A stretch of 64,000 nt of DNA from Verrucomicrobiia bacterium. GTDB lineage: Bacteria > Verrucomicrobiota > Verrucomicrobiia > Limisphaerales > JAEYXS01. A model generated the notes under the pieces. It made no database searches. It was not told where the DNA came from and was given only the letters and a program-made list of their open reading frames with translations. Below, piece after piece: positions 2,663-16,569 of the stretch; positions within the stretch are counted from its first letter, which is position 1, and every line of letters starts with the position of its first letter. The translations under genes and the position numbers were made by a program. The stretch covers positions 186,001 through 250,000 of the forward strand of contig DASWYF010000022.1 in assembly GCA_036405135.1 (NCBI GenBank), in the 5' to 3' direction.

Positions 2663-4860
2663 TTCGTTTTAACATCCGGCAGGGCAAACGCCACGTAGGC
2701 ATCGCCCTGATTTCCGCCCAGCTTACCCCCACCTGTGGCCGGGATGACAATATATTGTTTCCCATTCACCTCGTAAGTCGCCGGTGGCACATTGCCGCCG
2801 AAAGGCAGCTTCACGGACCAAAGCTCCGCGCCCGTATCTGCATCAAACGCACGAAGCTTCTCATCCCGCGTGCCACCGCAGAAGACCAGTCCACCCGCCG
2901 TCGCGATAGCACCTCCGAAGTTCTCCGTGCCCGTCTTCGCCATACCTTGCTTCGTGAGTTCAGGATATTCACCCAGCGGCACCTTCCAAAGAATCTTGCC
3001 CGTGTTCAGATCGATGCAATTCAACGAACCCCACGGCGGTTTCGAGGCCGGATAACCATCGGGATCGAGGAAGCGATTCCAGCCCGCTTGCACGTAACTA
3101 GGGCGCTCAGGCTTCACCGTGTTCGCGGGCAAGGGACGGTCGCGCAAGTACAGGAAATCGAGCAATGCCTTCTGCTCATCGCCGCTCATCGACGGAGCCA
3201 TGGGCATCAAGCCGCGCCCTGTTTGCAAAAGCTCCACCACTTCCGCATCCTTCATCCGATGCCGCAATCCGCGCAGAGGCGGCGCGACACCGATGCCCAT
3301 GCGATCATTCCCGTGACACTGAGCGCACGTCGCGCGATAGGTTTCTTCACCCTTGGTCGGTGTCGCCTTGGCGTCAAAAGGCGGCTCATCATTCACGATG
3401 AGATTCATCAACCACGGAATCTCGTTCGCACTCACGTAGAGGCGGCCCTTGGTCGGATCTGTGGCTGCACCTGTCCACTCCGCACCGCCATGCACACCGA
3501 AGAAAACAGTTACCTTGCGATCACTCAGTGGTTGAAACCAACCGTATTGCAGACTCTTCAAGCGATCGCGCACAAACTCCGCTGCTTCTTCTGAACGTAG
3601 CGTGATATCACTGGTATGAAAATCTTGTTTCGCAAATGGCTGAGGCAATTCGATGTCCGGCTGATACGGCGCCGTGATTTCACCGGGCACGCTGGAGGTT
3701 GGCGCGCGACGCAAGCGCACGGGGAAGATCGGCTTGCCTGTCACGCGATCTAGCAGGAGCGTGTTGCCGATTTTCGTCACCGTCGCCACTACATCCACGC
3801 GTTTGCCCTCGCGCGTGATGGTGCTCAGGACAGGCGGGGCAGGGATGTCGAGGTCCCAAATGTCGTGGCGGATCTCTTGAAAATGCCAGAGCCGTTTTCC
3901 CGTACGGGCATCTATGGCCACGACGCAATTCGCGAAAAGATTCTCGCCGCGATGCTGCATCCCCATGAAGTTTGGCTTCGGCGAACCCGTCGCGATATAG
4001 GCTATGCCTCGCACCTCATCCAGCGCCATGCCGCCCCAGCAATTCGCCGCCACGTTCTGCGGCTTGTCCCAAGTATCGAAGCCGAATTCGCCTTCCTGCG
4101 GCACCGTATGAAACGTCCACAGCAGCTTGCCGTTGTTGATATCAAAACCCCACACATCTTTCTCAAAACCCGGCACCACGATGATGTTTTGAAAGATGGC
4201 GGGGCCAGCCGTCGCTGCGCCGAATCCACCGGAAGACCTCCCCGGCAATTCCATGCGACCATCTGTGCCGAACTCTTTTACCGGCAACCCTGTTTTCGCA
4301 TGCAGCGCATACAGATGCTTGCCCGCCGTGAAGTAGAGACGTGCTTCCTTGGCATCTTTGCCCGCGTGATAGATCAGCCCTCGATACGCCGGGCGTCCTT
4401 CTGGTTTGTAGCGCCAAAGTTCTTTCCCATTCGTCGCGTCCACGGCGGCGATGTGTTGTCCCACTGTCGGCACATACATCACGCCGTTAACGATCACCGG
4501 GTTGCACTGGATGTTTCCTTTCCCATCACCCGAGCGATACACCCACGCCTCGGTGAGTTGGCTCACGTTGGATTTGTTGATCTGTGTGAGCGCCGAGAAT
4601 CGCGCCGAACCATTGTCTCCATGAGAGCGTGACCAATTGCTGAATGTTTCGGTCTTTGGAAAACCATTGGCAGGTGTGAGTTCACCCGGTTTGGCGGCGG
4701 GAATGGTTTGATACAGCGGCAGCTTGGCGCGAGGCGCAGCATCTTCCACGGCCCAATAATCCGGTTTATCCGCAGCTTGTGTGTGCAAGCATGCGAACAA
4801 GGCGATGGCCAAACCAATTTTCCGTGAATGCAAACGGGACATTCCCCTAGAAACTGTCAT
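2659..4860 (-). CDS. Exported PQQ-dependent dehydrogenase with inserted cytochrome c domain
   Basis: 733 residues from ATG 4860. The open frame runs further upstream, but that part overlaps the preceding gene; 4860 has AAGG six bases upstream and leads into a signal peptide ([17 protein letters not shown]). The protein is a PQQ-type beta-propeller (blades such as [14 protein letters not shown] and [12 protein letters not shown]) with an inserted cytochrome c haem site CAQCH at about residues 512-516, followed by a LMPMAP segment supplying the methionine ligand. The last blades ([28 protein letters not shown]) follow the cytochrome part. This is the layout of quinoprotein sugar/alcohol dehydrogenases acting in the periplasm and passing electrons to the haem. 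Substrate unknown. It sits 53 bases after a membrane flavoprotein-like gene and overlaps a pseudopilin gene. Confidence 0.9.
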
Positions 4861-4913: not shown

Positions 4914-6815
4914 TTACTGTTCTTTCTTCATCCATTCCCGGCAAAGTCCCAGCCCTATGAGTAATAATCCCATTCCTGCAAACGCTGGTAGCAGATGGTG
5001 CCAATCTACATAGCCAACGTGGAAATGGACACCAATGGCACAGACATAAGCCGCCAGACCGCTCCAGAGAAACGCATGCCACAGCCAGTTCGCGCCACGT
5101 CGCAAACCCCACATGCTGCCGAGCAGGTAGAGTAATCCGGAAGCGATGAGCATCCCGCCCAACGTGGCACGATCATGCGCAACCAAGGGCACCAGACGAG
5201 GATTCGCGTCACGCAACGTGATGAACTCCGTTTGCAAGAATTTCAGATCCGTATGCACAAACACATCGTTAATGCCGACGCAGCAGATGATGACGCCTGC
5301 GCCGAGCAGTCCCACACTATGAATCACCAGCAATAGTTGCCCCCATTGCGCTCGTCGCCATTCTTTCGTCTCCGTCCATTCTGGTGGGGATGAGTGAGTG
5401 CGTTGCGGTAAATCACCCACGATGCCTTGCACGAATAACTGAAACAGGACTGCGGTCACAAAGCCGTGAAAGGGATCGAAGTAATCGAATCCCAGGAACA
5501 GGAAGAAGGAAAAGAAACCGGCTCCAGCGGAGATAAGAACAGCGACCTTCGCCCAATGCTCACCGCGTTTGCTGCCAAACCATGAGAAGCTCATGTAGAG
5601 TAAACCGATGGCAATCATCGTGCCTGCCAGTGACACGCGATCATGTGACATGAAAGGCAGCAATCGTTCATTCACCAACTGTAACTGCGCGCGGCTGATG
5701 CCGCAGAAGGCTTCATCATATGGCATCACTATCCGTGTGAGCGCGATCCATAATGCCAGTACGCTGCCGATGAGCATTCCCAGTCCCATGAGCGCCGTCC
5801 AAAACCATGAGAGCTTTGCCAGACGTGGCGGTGCTGTCTCTTCGGCCGCAGGCAGAGTGCTCAACACTGCTTCATTGAGGCGTTTCGGCAAGCCGGGGCC
5901 GGAGTAAATAAGTCCCGTATCGATCTGCACTAACGTAGCGCCTGCTCCCAAAACCTCCTTTGCATCGATGGGCTGATGAATGCCGCCGGAGGCGATGATA
6001 GGCAATGTATCGCCGGCCACTCCTCGAACTTGCTTCACCGCATCCACCAAAAGTGGTTTGCTTGCCGGGCTGTATATCTGTGTGCCTCCTTGCACCTGAT
6101 AGGCATCCAGAATCACACCGTCGCAACCAGAGAAAATATTGTCCGGAAACGAAAGGCGTTGAGTCACTGGCACCACGAGCAGCCACGAATGCTTCGGCGC
6201 ATTTGCATGCAGTGTTTCCCAGAGCTGGCCCCATTCTGCGGCAGACCACCCGGGCAAAGTTCCTTGTGTGCTTACTTCTATAGAAAAAATCCCCGTATGG
6301 GCTTTCAGCGTCCCCGCAAGCTCAAGAAGTGATTTTGCTGCCGAAGCCGAGTCCGCCTTTTCCACGCGCAATCGCACGATGCAATGCACCGGACTGGTTT
6401 GCTTCCCTCTCAATCTATCCGCCAGGCCAGGTGCATCGATGGTGGCTGGTGAAGACATCTTTAGCGCTTCACGGCTTTCATCTCGTTCGAGGTTCTTGGC
6501 CTCTTGTGCGGTATCTGTGAGAGGGCCGAGCTCGATGAAGGAGAAGCCGAAACGCGTCCACGCATTTATCGCAAGTCCAGTTCCATCCAGGCGCGTGCCT
6601 AAGCCAACAGGTCCGATGAACTTGCGCCCCAACAAAGTATTCTCTAGGCGGGCATCGGGCCGCATGTGGCCGAGGAAATCAATGAATGCACCGCCGAGTC
6701 CTTGCGGCAGATCGCCTATCATACCCATGAAACTGCAGGCCAACGATTGGGCCTTATCCGCAGGCAGACGGAAGAGCAGGGGACGGGAAACGGTGCGATA
6801 GAACCAGTCTGGCAC
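4914..6815 (-). CDS. Dihydroorotate dehydrogenase-like domain fused to a duplicated membrane domain
   Basis: 633 residues. Residues 1 to about 325 resemble class 2 (quinone-linked) dihydroorotate dehydrogenase: MPDWFYRTVSRPLLFRLPADKAQ at the N terminus, GPVGLGTRLDGTG at 69-80, LPIIASGGI at 271-279 and the FMN-phosphate segment GATLVQIDTGLIYSGPGLPKRLNE. The usual NIGKN block that follows the substrate region is not recognisable, so catalysis is doubtful. Residues 335-628 form a membrane domain with about eight hydrophobic segments and an internal duplication: residues 384-421 and 540-577 share the pattern HDRxSLxGxMIAxGLLY...KRGxxW. First gene of a probable operon with the PQQ-cytochrome protein. 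It may be a quinone-linked oxidoreductase rather than a pyrimidine enzyme. Confidence 0.75.
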   Translation of the reverse strand: MPDWFYRTVSRPLLFRLPADKAQSLACSFMGMIGDLPQGLGGAFIDFLGHMRPDARLENTLLGRKFIGPVGLGTRLDGTGLAINAWTRFGFSFIELGPLTDTAQEAKNLERDESREALKMSSPATIDAPGLADRLRGKQTSPVHCIVRLRVEKADSASAAKSLLELAGTLKAHTGIFSIEVSTQGTLPGWSAAEWGQLWETLHANAPKHSWLLVVPVTQRLSFPDNIFSGCDGVILDAYQVQGGTQIYSPASKPLLVDAVKQVRGVAGDTLPIIASGGIHQPIDAKEVLGAGATLVQIDTGLIYSGPGLPKRLNEAVLSTLPAAEETAPPRLAKLSWFWTALMGLGMLIGSVLALWIALTRIVMPYDEAFCGISRAQLQLVNERLLPFMSHDRVSLAGTMIAIGLLYMSFSWFGSKRGEHWAKVAVLISAGAGFFSFFLFLGFDYFDPFHGFVTAVLFQLFVQGIVGDLPQRTHSSPPEWTETKEWRRAQWGQLLLVIHSVGLLGAGVIICCVGINDVFVHTDLKFLQTEFITLRDANPRLVPLVAHDRATLGGMLIASGLLYLLGSMWGLRRGANWLWHAFLWSGLAAYVCAIGVHFHVGYVDWHHLLPAFAGMGLLLIGLGLCREWMKKEQ

Positions 6816-13833: not shown

Positions 13834-13837
13834 GGAG

Positions 13838-15073
13838 ATGAAAATGAAATCTAAAAGCGCAGCGAAGAAAGTGGTGGCTTATCCGACATTGGTCGGGGGC
13901 ATCGGTGCGCTTTTGGAGCAGTCGCGGCGGGCGGTGGCACGTTCGGTGAACTGCCTGATGACGGCGACTTATTGGGAGGTGGGGCGGAGAATTGTGGAGT
14001 TTGAGCAAGGGGGAAAGAAACGGGCGGAGTATGGAGATGAGCTGTTGGAGCGATTGGCGAAGGATTTGACGGAACGGCATGGGAGGGGTTTTTCGTATAC
14101 AAACCTCAATAAATATCGGCAATTCTTTCTGAGTTATAGCAAGATTCTCCCGACGATGTCGGAAGATTTTCAAATTCTACCGACACTGTCGGGAGAATCT
14201 TCGTCTGTTGGGATTTTGCAGACACAGTCTGCAAAATCTCTCGTTCCAATTTCCGCGACAGCGTCGCGGAAATCTTTTTCTGAACTGGATTGGGTATATT
14301 TCCTCGATGCTCTAGCGAAACGTTTTCCGCTTCCTTGGTCGCACTATGTGCGACTGCTAGCGGTGAAAGACGAATCAGCTCGCAGTTTCTATGAGGAAGA
14401 AGCGTTGCGAGGCGGTTGGAGCGTGCGTCAATTGAATCGACAGATCGGGACGCTCTTTTACGAACGCACTTTGCTCTCCAAGAACAAAGTGGCGATGCTG
14501 AAGAAGGGTTCTCAAGCGAAGGCTGACGAAAAGCCTTCGGTGAATGAGGTGCTGCGTGATCCGCTGGTGTTGGAATTTTTGGATCTGAAGGATGAGTATT
14601 CGGAAACGGACGTGGAGGAGGCGCTCATCCGGCATCTGGAAACGTTTTTGCTCGAACTGGGCGGGGATTTTACTTTCGTGGGGCGTCAGCGGAGGTTGCG
14701 CATCGGGCAGGCGTGGTATCGCGTCGATCTGATCTTTTATCATCGCCGCTTACGCTGTCTAGTCATCTTGGAGCTTAAGCTGGGTGAGTTCACGCATGCA
14801 GATGCCGGACAGATGCATCTGTATCTGAATTACGCGCGAGAGCATTGGACACATAAGGATGAGAATCCGCCAGTGGGAATCATTCTGTGTTCTTCGACGG
14901 ATAAAACGTTGGTGCATTACACGCTGGATTCGTTGCCGAACAAGGTGCTGGCGCATAAATATCAATTGGCTTTGCCGAATGTGAAGCGGTTGGAAGAGGA
15001 GTTGCGCAAGACCCGCCAGACTCTGGAAGGGTATGCGGGTAAGGTGACGAGAACGAAACGTAAGAAAGTTTAG
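13838..15073 (+). CDS. YhcG/DUF1016-type PD-(D/E)XK nuclease family protein
   Basis: 411 residues, four bases after the aldolase-like gene. The N-terminal DUF1016 domain (about 20-100; TYWEVGRRIVEFEQGG, YGDELLERLAKDL, FSYTNLNKYRQFF) is followed by an unusual insertion at residues 101-148, then the second helical part (WSHYVRLLAVKDESARSFYEEEAL) and a C-terminal PD-(D/E)XK nuclease-like fold with D297, E312 and K314 (RVDLIFYHRRLRCLVILELKLG, split). YhcG proteins are found with mobile DNA and restriction loci and are thought to act on branched or foreign DNA; this is family knowledge, not shown here. The insertion is built of four palindromic DNA units read in frame. Confidence 0.88.
   Translation: MKMKSKSAAKKVVAYPTLVGGIGALLEQSRRAVARSVNCLMTATYWEVGRRIVEFEQGGKKRAEYGDELLERLAKDLTERHGRGFSYTNLNKYRQFFLSYSKILPTMSEDFQILPTLSGESSSVGILQTQSAKSLVPISATASRKSFSELDWVYFLDALAKRFPLPWSHYVRLLAVKDESARSFYEEEALRGGWSVRQLNRQIGTLFYERTLLSKNKVAMLKKGSQAKADEKPSVNEVLRDPLVLEFLDLKDEYSETDVEEALIRHLETFLLELGGDFTFVGRQRRLRIGQAWYRVDLIFYHRRLRCLVILELKLGEFTHADAGQMHLYLNYAREHWTHKDENPPVGIILCSSTDKTLVHYTLDSLPNKVLAHKYQLALPNVKRLEEELRKTRQTLEGYAGKVTRTKRKKV
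14141..14273 (+). repeat. Four in-frame palindromic units inside the YhcG-type gene
   Basis: Four consecutive inverted repeats of the form ...GAC-NNN-GTC... lie inside the coding sequence. Unit A (14141-14170) and unit B (14172-14201) are imperfect, but the left arm of A (AAGATTCTCCCGAC) and the right arm of B are perfect reverse complements. Unit C (14212-14238) has perfect 12-base arms (GATTTTGCAGAC). Unit D (14249-14273) has perfect 11-base arms (ATTTCCGCGAC). All are read in the same frame and give the related peptides ILPTMSED, ILPTLSGE, ILQTQSAK and ISATASRK. Confidence 0.85.
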
Positions 15074-15084
15074 AAATTTAATTT

Positions 15085-16569
15085 ATGGCTGAACCATTCA
15101 AAATCACGCGCGTTGCCTCGCTCAAGACGGTTGAGGAGTTCCGCAAGTTCAACGAGACGTTGGGCATCAATATCCCTTGCGAGGATAAGATCGCGGCGGG
15201 GGATTCACCGCTCGCGCAGCCGATCACGCATGTGACGGTGAACGGGAAGAAGATTGGCAATCGTTATGCGATCCATCCTATGGAAGGGTGGGATGGGACG
15301 ACAACGGGCGGGGTGACGGAGGAGATGCGGCGGCGCTGGCAGCGCTTCGGTGAGAGCGGCTCCAAGCTGATCTGCGGCGCGGAGGCGATGGCGGTGCGCG
15401 CGGATGGGCGCGCGAATCCGAACCAGATCATCATCGTGGAGGAGAACAAGGCGGGTCTCGCGGAGCTGATGGGCATTCTGAAGAAGGCGCATCTGGAGAA
15501 GTATGGCACGACGGATGACCTGGTGATCGGGTTTCAGCTCACGCACTCGGGGCGGTTCTGCCGTCCGGTGGACAAGAAGCGCTGGGAATCACGCATCGCG
15601 TTCCGGCATCCGATTCTCGACAAGAAGTTCAATGTGACGAGCGATGACCAAGTGTTCACGGATGCGGACATCGAAGAACTGATCCAGTGCTACATCCGCG
15701 CAGCGAAGATCGCGTGGGATGTGGGAGCGGACTTCGTGGACATCAAGCATTGCCACGGTTATCTGCTGCACGAATTTCTCGGGGCGCATACGCGTCCGGG
15801 CAAGTACGGCGGGAGCTTTGAGAACCGCACGCGGGTGTTGCGCGAAATTATTGAGGGCATTCGCGCGAGCGGGAACAAGATCGAGTTCGCGGTGCGCTTG
15901 AGCACGTTTGACAAGGTGCCCTATCGGCCTGATCCGACGCTCTCGCAACCGGGCAAGCTGGGGCCGGGCATTCCGGAAGAGCACGCGCATTGTCTGCCGT
16001 ATGTGTATGGCTTCGGCGTGAATCAGCAGGACCCGACGCAGATCGACATCGCGGAGACGTTCAAGTTCCTCGAACTGTGCGCGGAGCTGGGCGTGAAAAT
16101 CATCAATACCACCGCGGGTTCGCCGTATTACACGCCGAACTTGCAACGGCCAGCGGCGTTTCCGCCGAGCGATGGTTATCAGCCGGCGTATGATCCGTTG
16201 ATCGACGTGGAGCGGCAGATCCAGGTGGTGAAGCAATTGCGTGCGAAAGCGCCGAAGGACATGATCATCATCGGCTCCGGCTACAGCTACTTGCAAGAGT
16301 ATCTGCCGCATGTGGCGCAGTATGTGGTACGGAACGGTTGGGCGGATATGGTGGGCATCGGTCGCGTGGTGCTGAGCTATCCGACGATGATCGCGGACGC
16401 AGTGCAGAAGGGCGAGATGACGACGAAGCTGATCTGCCGCACGTTCAGCGATTGCACAACGGCGCCGCGCAATGGGTTGATCAGCGGGTGCTATCCGCTG
16501 GATAAATATTACACGCAGAAACCGGAGTTCGCGAAGCTGAAGGAGATCAAGAAAAACGTCGGGGCGTGA
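15085..16569 (+). CDS. NADH:flavin oxidoreductase, old yellow enzyme family
   Basis: 494 residues, longer than the typical 350-400 of OYE enzymes. An FMN-dependent TIM barrel: NRYAIHPMEGWDG (FMN-binding loop), GFQLTHSGRFCRP (beta4, with the substrate-region residues), DFVDIKHCHGYLLHEFLGAHTRPGKYGGS (the family's HxCHGYLxxxFLSPxxNxRxDxYGGS region, here split and varied), and a late GRVVLSYPTMIADA block. The C-terminal extension carries cysteines (TKLICRTFSDCTTAPRNG) that resemble the Fe-S cluster region of 2,4-dienoyl-CoA reductase-like members, but incompletely. Reduces an activated C=C bond or acts as a dehydrogenase; the substrate is unknown. Starts 11 bases after the YhcG-type gene. Confidence 0.88.
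   Translation: MAEPFKITRVASLKTVEEFRKFNETLGINIPCEDKIAAGDSPLAQPITHVTVNGKKIGNRYAIHPMEGWDGTTTGGVTEEMRRRWQRFGESGSKLICGAEAMAVRADGRANPNQIIIVEENKAGLAELMGILKKAHLEKYGTTDDLVIGFQLTHSGRFCRPVDKKRWESRIAFRHPILDKKFNVTSDDQVFTDADIEELIQCYIRAAKIAWDVGADFVDIKHCHGYLLHEFLGAHTRPGKYGGSFENRTRVLREIIEGIRASGNKIEFAVRLSTFDKVPYRPDPTLSQPGKLGPGIPEEHAHCLPYVYGFGVNQQDPTQIDIAETFKFLELCAELGVKIINTTAGSPYYTPNLQRPAAFPPSDGYQPAYDPLIDVERQIQVVKQLRAKAPKDMIIIGSGYSYLQEYLPHVAQYVVRNGWADMVGIGRVVLSYPTMIADAVQKGEMTTKLICRTFSDCTTAPRNGLISGCYPLDKYYTQKPEFAKLKEIKKNVGA

Follow-up and report, generated by a model that had tools for sequence, protein, structure and literature searches.

Palindromic units with drifting but complementary arms are a conserved DNA-level part of DUF1016/YhcG nuclease genes

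What keeps a series of near-perfect DNA palindromes inside the reading frame of a predicted nuclease gene? The question arises from a 64,000-nt stretch of a Verrucomicrobiia genome, hereafter the window, in which a plus-strand gene at 13838..15073 encodes a protein of 411 aa. Assignment of this gene to the DUF1016/YhcG family is supported by the ORF itself, by Pfam, by the PADLOC PDC-S02 models and by fold and profile comparisons. The only Pfam matches in the protein are DUF1016_N (134.1 bits; residues 22-210, 13901..14467, plus strand) and the PD-(D/E)XK nuclease domain YhcG_C (186.6 bits; residues 237-389, 14546..15004, plus strand), both over the cut-off.

A first-pass annotation had pointed to four in-frame inverted repeats at 14141-14273 sharing a GAC-NNN-GTC core, two of them with perfect arms of 11 and 12 bases, and direct inspection of the sequence confirmed this. 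Unit 1, ATTCTCCCGAC-GAT-GTCGGAAGATT (14144..14168), pairs at 9 of its 11 arm positions and encodes ILPTMSEDF, while unit 2, ATTCTACCGAC-ACT-GTCGGGAGAAT (14174..14198), pairs at 10 of 11 and encodes ILPTLSGES. Both remaining units are perfect over 11 pairs; these are unit 3, ATTTTGCAGAC-ACA-GTCTGCAAAAT (14213..14237, encoding ILQTQSAKS), whose arms in fact reach 12 bp (14212-14223/14227-14238), and unit 4, ATTTCCGCGAC-AGC-GTCGCGGAAAT (14249..14273, encoding ISATASRKS). All four lie on the plus strand in frame 0 of ORF 13838-15073 with a 3-nt centre each, and aligned on these centres they are copies of one 25-bp in-frame palindrome, ATT-N5-GAC-RSY-GTC-N5'-AAT. The earlier description of an eight-residue motif had to be corrected, as 25 bp touch nine codons, the peptides spanning residues 103-146. 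The same applies to the placement between two DUF1016 parts; the palindromic linker is inserted within the DUF1016_N match. The AlphaFold model shows disorder at residues 115-143, a stretch that takes in units 2 and 3 and the beginning of unit 4, and single-strand folding of the unit region gives a z of about -10 against shuffled sequence, as DNA or as RNA.

The surroundings of the gene were also informative. At 13836-15085 yhcG exactly fills the gap between a DUF993 and an FMN-oxidoreductase gene, and in another genome of the same genus (L334) these two genes are found 40 bp apart with no yhcG. As the gap in this genome matches the window site exactly, yhcG appears to be a single-gene cassette that comes and goes.

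To follow the units beyond the window a protein search with one genome per species was used, giving 80 homologues from many phyla. A perfect 11/11 unit was present in 55 of 80 distinct genes (the window gene included and one duplicate locus left out) and a unit with at least 10/11 pairs in 77, at the same site. In line with the check proposed in the annotation, copy number varies, from 1 to about 5, and the arms differ around a constant core. In frame 0 we counted 198 units, other frames having weak matches only, and two-sided changes in paired columns numbered 161, a value reached by none of 500 shuffles; it should be noted that the units behind both counts were chosen for their pairing, and that we rely on a selection-free test instead. 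In this test, made because the earlier units had been found by their pairing, 94 units were picked solely by 13 fixed bases. Of these, 60 had complementary bases at all five variable pairs, and position by position 75, 81, 84, 92 and 88 were complementary where base composition predicts 38, 30, 33, 57 and 58. In the same 94 units pairing at the loop (54, with 49.8 expected) and at the outer flank (47, with 43.6 expected) did not depart from expectation, hence the paired element of the window's subfamily is an 11-bp stem with a 3-nt loop. In 36 of 44 comparisons between good units of one gene the variable bases were not the same, although units within a gene are more alike (1.9 differences of 5) than units of different genes (2.8).

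The whole DUF1016 family was then covered with a general inverted-repeat criterion (11 or more pairs, no more than one mismatch, a loop no longer than 5). Such repeats occur in 100 of 119 DUF1016 genes and in 4 of 112 neighbouring control genes. Out of sample, among independent DUF1016 genes from two other phyla, 35 of 51 had such a repeat, compared with 8 of 255 synonymously shuffled versions of them and 2 of 31 neighbouring genes. A chance origin was rejected on the neighbouring-gene controls. Subfamilies without the GACNNNGTC core carry other palindromes at the same place, just before an L-[ST/P]-W-[SG]-H motif, for example ATTGCGTCCGCACTGCGGACGCAAT, ATTGTCCAACAGGCTGTTGGACAAT, ATTGTGCAAGGGGCCCTTGCACAAT and the 24-bp ATTTGGCACTCGCGAGTGCCAAAT. 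In and around 209 DUF1016 ORFs we found 203 palindromes of the form ATT...AAT, distributed as 192 within the ORF (188 of them in frame 0), 7 upstream and 4 downstream. These comparisons show the palindrome to be a family-wide, positionally conserved, DNA-level part of DUF1016 genes, which has been multiplied in the YhcG subfamily. About one in three of the genomes sampled from two phyla had a DUF1016-family gene. Two single cases deserve mention, a DUF1016 gene with a 45-nt palindrome (21/22 pairs) at the usual site (L123:1766-1810) and a perfect in-frame unit at the extreme N-terminus (MKKPHQKA-IFQTPSGKY, L015:2477-2501), a position not seen in other homologues.

Conservation within an ORF could simply mirror a conserved peptide, and the units do share the pattern I-x-x-x-[LVAP]-x-x-[QEK]-[LSF]. 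The annotation had named a codon-level coincidence, with the same peptide encoded by non-palindromic DNA, as the finding that would count against it, and what we found was the opposite: the palindrome is kept with different peptides. In one lineage from a second phylum (L172-L175) it stands at the same site in another reading frame, so that the protein reads EFPRQCLGNLSWS where others have IxQTLSxxL. Synonymous sites within the units are constrained, as threonine codons end in A or G in 114 of 115 cases in units compared with 698 of 1439 elsewhere in the same genes, and synonymous shuffling destroys the repeats, as given above. On the shuffles and the frame-shifted lineage we rejected codon coincidence, which is hardly credible as an explanation of the symmetry.

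Outside the window gene the unit pattern was not found in the 5.8-Mb genome to which the window belongs. Among 288 genomes of the phylum, 23 of the 24 fully paired matches listed lie in DUF1016 genes or degenerate copies thereof, while non-palindromic matches to the pattern were about as common as in the reversed control. Across 39 genomes or records that contain homologues, most of the exceptions belonged to further, divergent DUF1016 genes or to a DUF1016 promoter region. The search for units elsewhere that had been proposed with the first-pass annotation hence did not bear out its idea of an insertion family comparable to the Rickettsia palindromic elements (RPE), and dispersal of that kind was rejected from the genome scans. 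A protein-coding palindrome of variable copy number stood from that interpretation; the RPE-like insertion family did not, as the feature is family-wide and found at a homologous site with unrelated cores. Complementarity with drifting sequence, restricted to DUF1016 genes and independent of peptide and frame, is what these data show.

A few stray units do exist outside DUF1016 genes, most of them on phage contigs, where perfect ones were seen at L156:9938-9985, L157:8089, L163:3424, L165:7563 and L166:1342. Two of these adjoin each other upstream of a serine-recombinase gene, another lies past a stop codon, another in frame within a phage ORF and another between two phage genes. In L158 two repeated unit pairs (4705-4764 and 6027-6086) lie 1322 bp apart and are followed by an apparent DUF1016 gene remnant. 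No empty site for a single unit was found; L165/L178 is a degraded copy, and the relatives of L160 and L166 are too diverged to tell.

The yhcG gene of E. coli belongs to the same family, and its alleles illustrate how the units vary. In K-12 three units lie in the gene and a perfect fourth follows 16 bp past the stop codon, while another allele shares this 3' unit and has two different ones within the gene. A 78-bp deletion has removed two units from O157:H7, and two other strains have frameshifting deletions near the units. Unit 2 gathers mismatches, with units 1 and 3 and the 3' unit mostly kept. The noncoding 3' unit reads ATTCTGCAGACAGTGTCTGCAGAAT (L085:5111-5135, L090:4144-4168), and in O157:H7 its loop is ACT rather than AGT, which could result from inversion or from a G-to-C substitution. 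The outer edge of unit 3 is precisely where yhcG breaks off in E. coli B (L089:3001-3880) and in no fewer than 700 further E. coli genomes, the sequence running on in all of these into a 474-bp segment with a 101-aa ORF which is annotated as a transposase and gave no Pfam match. This segment adjoins nanQ in the genomes listed, and for these two reasons we read no mechanism from the junction.

Comparison of the encoded domains with solved structures gives some indication of what might recognise the palindrome. The nearest solved folds of the nuclease domain are NucS/EndoMS (2vld, Z 12.8; 5gke, Z 12.6). The N-terminal domain, represented by a compact relative, matched the DNA-binding domains of ParB and Noc (7nfu, Z 10.0 over 99 residues; 7ol9, Z 9.8 over 103 residues; the Spo0J-parS entry 4umk, Z 9.0), although a Z of about 10 over some 100 residues, seen for several ParB/Noc entries, falls for a helical domain within the caution range of the tool. 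Foldseek gave probabilities of 0.97-1.00 with E 0.04-0.3 for the same relation. An hhalign comparison of full profiles, with 22 ParB proteins from related genomes on the ParB side, resulted in single-comparison E values of 1.8e-4 to 4.6e-4 and probabilities of 33-49%. In the best register (E 1.8e-4, probability 49%) LPWSHYVRLL...GGWSVRQLNRQI is set against LSVGHAKVIL...GLNVRQTEALV, and LPWSHYVRLLAVKDESARSFYEEEALRGGWSVRQLNRQI against LSVGHAKVILGLAGPTHQKSAAERILRDGLNVRQTEALV. Sequence searches of the solved structures in the PDB returned neither ParB nor any other relative of the N-terminal domain. We consider the resemblance to the ParB/Noc DNA-binding domain a supported lead, not proof.

Some gene neighbourhoods can be noted here. 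In Burkholderia-group plasmids an HU-family gene lies directly upstream of the DUF1016 gene, in some overlapping or nearly touching it, and in plasmids of Pseudomonas and Citrobacter the start of the DUF1016 gene is overlapped by a gene for a site-specific integrase. The plasmids in question are L088, L269-L271, L086 and L268.

Taken together, we tentatively suggest, at somewhat less than an even chance, that the unit is a self-recognition site of the parS/NBS kind, possibly acting as a hairpin or cruciform, by which the nuclease controls its own gene. DUF1016/YhcG genes would on this model carry, at one set position in the N-terminal domain, a palindromic site some 25 bp long, laid out as ATT, five paired variable bases, a core of roughly 9 bp that is particular to the subfamily, another five paired bases and AAT. 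The encoded protein would recognise this site in its own gene by its putative ParB/Noc-like N-terminal domain, and bring along a C-terminal domain that resembles the structure-selective nucleases NucS/EndoMS. As complementarity is kept where sequence differs even within one gene, the recognised form is probably at least in part an extruded hairpin or cruciform, with an 11-bp stem and a 3-nt loop in the window's subfamily. Autoregulation seems the most likely use; when abundant, the potentially harmful nuclease would bind its own gene, repress or roadblock transcription and perhaps cleave there. Besides the family-wide repeats, their covariation, the constrained synonymous sites, the lineage in another frame, the lack of a G-U bias and the ParB/Noc resemblance, we count in favour of this reading the HU-family gene upstream in the Burkholderia-group plasmids, the extra perfect unit 16 bp past the E. 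coli yhcG stop codon and the two-fold symmetric binding of palindromes by ParB and Noc (PMC7383237). Against it, extra units decay, E. coli unit 2 and window unit 1 being imperfect, so that not every copy is needed, a purely linear dimer site needs no complementarity at positions that are not read, few palindromes lie upstream as expected of an operator (7, and 4 downstream, compared with 192 in the gene), and the ParB match is moderate, with Z in the caution range, hhalign at 33-49% and no ParB from the PDB sequence search.

The strong pairing could also be explained by the transcript, with the units as RNA stem-loops in yhcG mRNA that control its translation or decay or are bound by the protein it encodes. 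The strong RNA hairpins (z -10.5) and the covariation fit an RNA stem with a 3-nt loop, and a transcript would include all in-gene and 3' units. An RNA stem should tolerate G-U pairs, but mismatches of the G-U type were not above A-C in three counts (13 against 15, 4 against 9 and 10 against 18), hence selection looks to be at the DNA level, although codon effects at position 4 weaken this test. Further, the loop consensus RSY equals its reverse complement and loops of either orientation are common, and in several other subfamilies the symmetry of the core extends right through its centre, a feature for which an RNA loop has no need; we hold a role in the mRNA to be unlikely. Quite unlikely as well is that the nuclease cuts its own extruded palindrome, causing duplication or loss of units, shuffling of alleles or movement of the cassette. 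Such an activity would suit the NucS/EndoMS-like fold, the unit number that varies among homologues and within E. coli by independent deletions, the E. coli B allele that stops exactly at the unit 3 outer edge and the come-and-go behaviour of the gene. On the other hand, the E. coli deletions end at short repeats outside the units, the B-type junction looks like one old event with a replacement segment at least 99% identical in 720 of 722 genomes, and the ends of the cassette are those of the gene and not of the units.

Two further explanations we find improbable. A selfish, RPE-like coding element inserted in frame and now mostly confined to DUF1016 could account for the several in-frame positions (the N-terminus in L015, site A in L135/L133, site B and the linker) and for the rare strays on phage contigs and elsewhere. 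It sits badly with the missing dispersal in the window genome and the near absence of it in 288 genomes, with palindromes at the homologous site in subfamilies of unrelated cores, and with the lack of any empty single-unit site among those searched. Mutational upkeep, in which template switching at hairpins repairs palindromes so that symmetry lasts as sequence drifts, readily accounts for arms that drift freely and yet stay symmetrical, units within one gene differing in 36 of 44 pairs. Yet it leaves the restriction to one family and one site unexplained along with the conserved ATT/AAT ends and cores, mismatches persist in E. coli unit 2 and K-12 unit 1, and control genes have such palindromes in only 4/112 and 2/31 cases.

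Returning to the self-recognition site, we speculate further that DUF1016 might constitute a large group of ParB-like nucleases, each of which labels its own gene and reads that label, a palindromic address set by its hairpin or cruciform structure that may drift in sequence as long as it remains self-complementary, with possible uses in sensing gene dosage and setting levels, or in licensing or restraining the nuclease; this extension is doubtful. What can be said plainly is that DNA-level conservation runs inside the coding sequence across a whole nuclease family, E. coli K-12 included, and that it offers a clear natural case of selection within an ORF keeping complementarity rather than sequence or peptide. 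For the DUF1016 family, annotated without function and listed as a phage-defence candidate (PDC-S02), it is a first concrete handle, from which a binding site, a fold for DNA binding and a regulatory circuit can be predicted, all approachable in ordinary E. coli. The open-access papers on DUF1016/YhcG, to which the search was limited, make no mention of palindromes within the gene, which does not prove priority. The feature appears to have gone unnoticed so far. RPE and PARCEL differ from it in defining features.

Of known systems, RPEs and the coding palindromes of Wolbachia and Methanocaldococcus likewise place in-frame palindromic DNA where the protein has little structure. RPEs measure about 100-150 nt and are dispersed in intergenic regions, RNA genes and unrelated coding sequences (PMC4316617), whereas DUF1016 units are 25 bp, essentially belong to one gene family and combine a homologous site with subfamily-specific cores and drifting arms; the window units are in-frame coding palindromes with no dispersed copies in the same genome. 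The palindromic amphipathic repeat coding elements (PARCEL) share with them coding dyad symmetry, presence in many phyla and tandem repetition, but consist of a 25-residue (75-nt) tandem repeat of the DUF285/TIGR02167 type with imperfect dyads in membrane-type proteins (PMC2996958). DUF1016 units are instead short, often perfect palindromes in a nuclease gene, 25 nt in length, and Pfam gave no match to the PARCEL repeat (DUF285/TIGR02167) in the window protein.

REP sequences and RAYT transposases link one protein family to hairpin-capable palindromes near its gene. REPs are numerous and extragenic, while DUF1016 units are few, coding and without an HUH transposase, as no HUH (Y1) domain was found by Pfam in the window gene product; with 192 in-gene against 11 flanking, the units do not form extragenic REP-type clusters. 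In the target hairpins of diversity-generating retroelements and in integron attC sites pairing matters more than arm sequence, but the units described here lie inside the nuclease's own coding sequence with no reverse transcriptase or integrase involved.

A further parallel is offered by ParB-parS and Noc-NBS of the Spo0J family, with which DUF1016 has palindromic sites and, if the prediction holds, a ParB/Noc-like DNA-binding domain in common. ParB and Noc bind 16-bp palindromes two-fold symmetrically, parS being TGTTTCACGTGAAACA and NBS TATTTCCCGGGAAATA, and the ATTT...AAAT ends of the NBS consensus recall the ATT...AAT ends of the units (PMC7383237). DUF1016 differs in that a nuclease domain is attached and no CTPase domain was found, the window protein giving no Pfam match to the N-terminal ParB CTPase domain. 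In B. subtilis a parS site lies inside spo0J itself. ParB and Noc sites are otherwise placed around oriC, while those of DUF1016 lie in their own gene, with a middle that is variable but paired.
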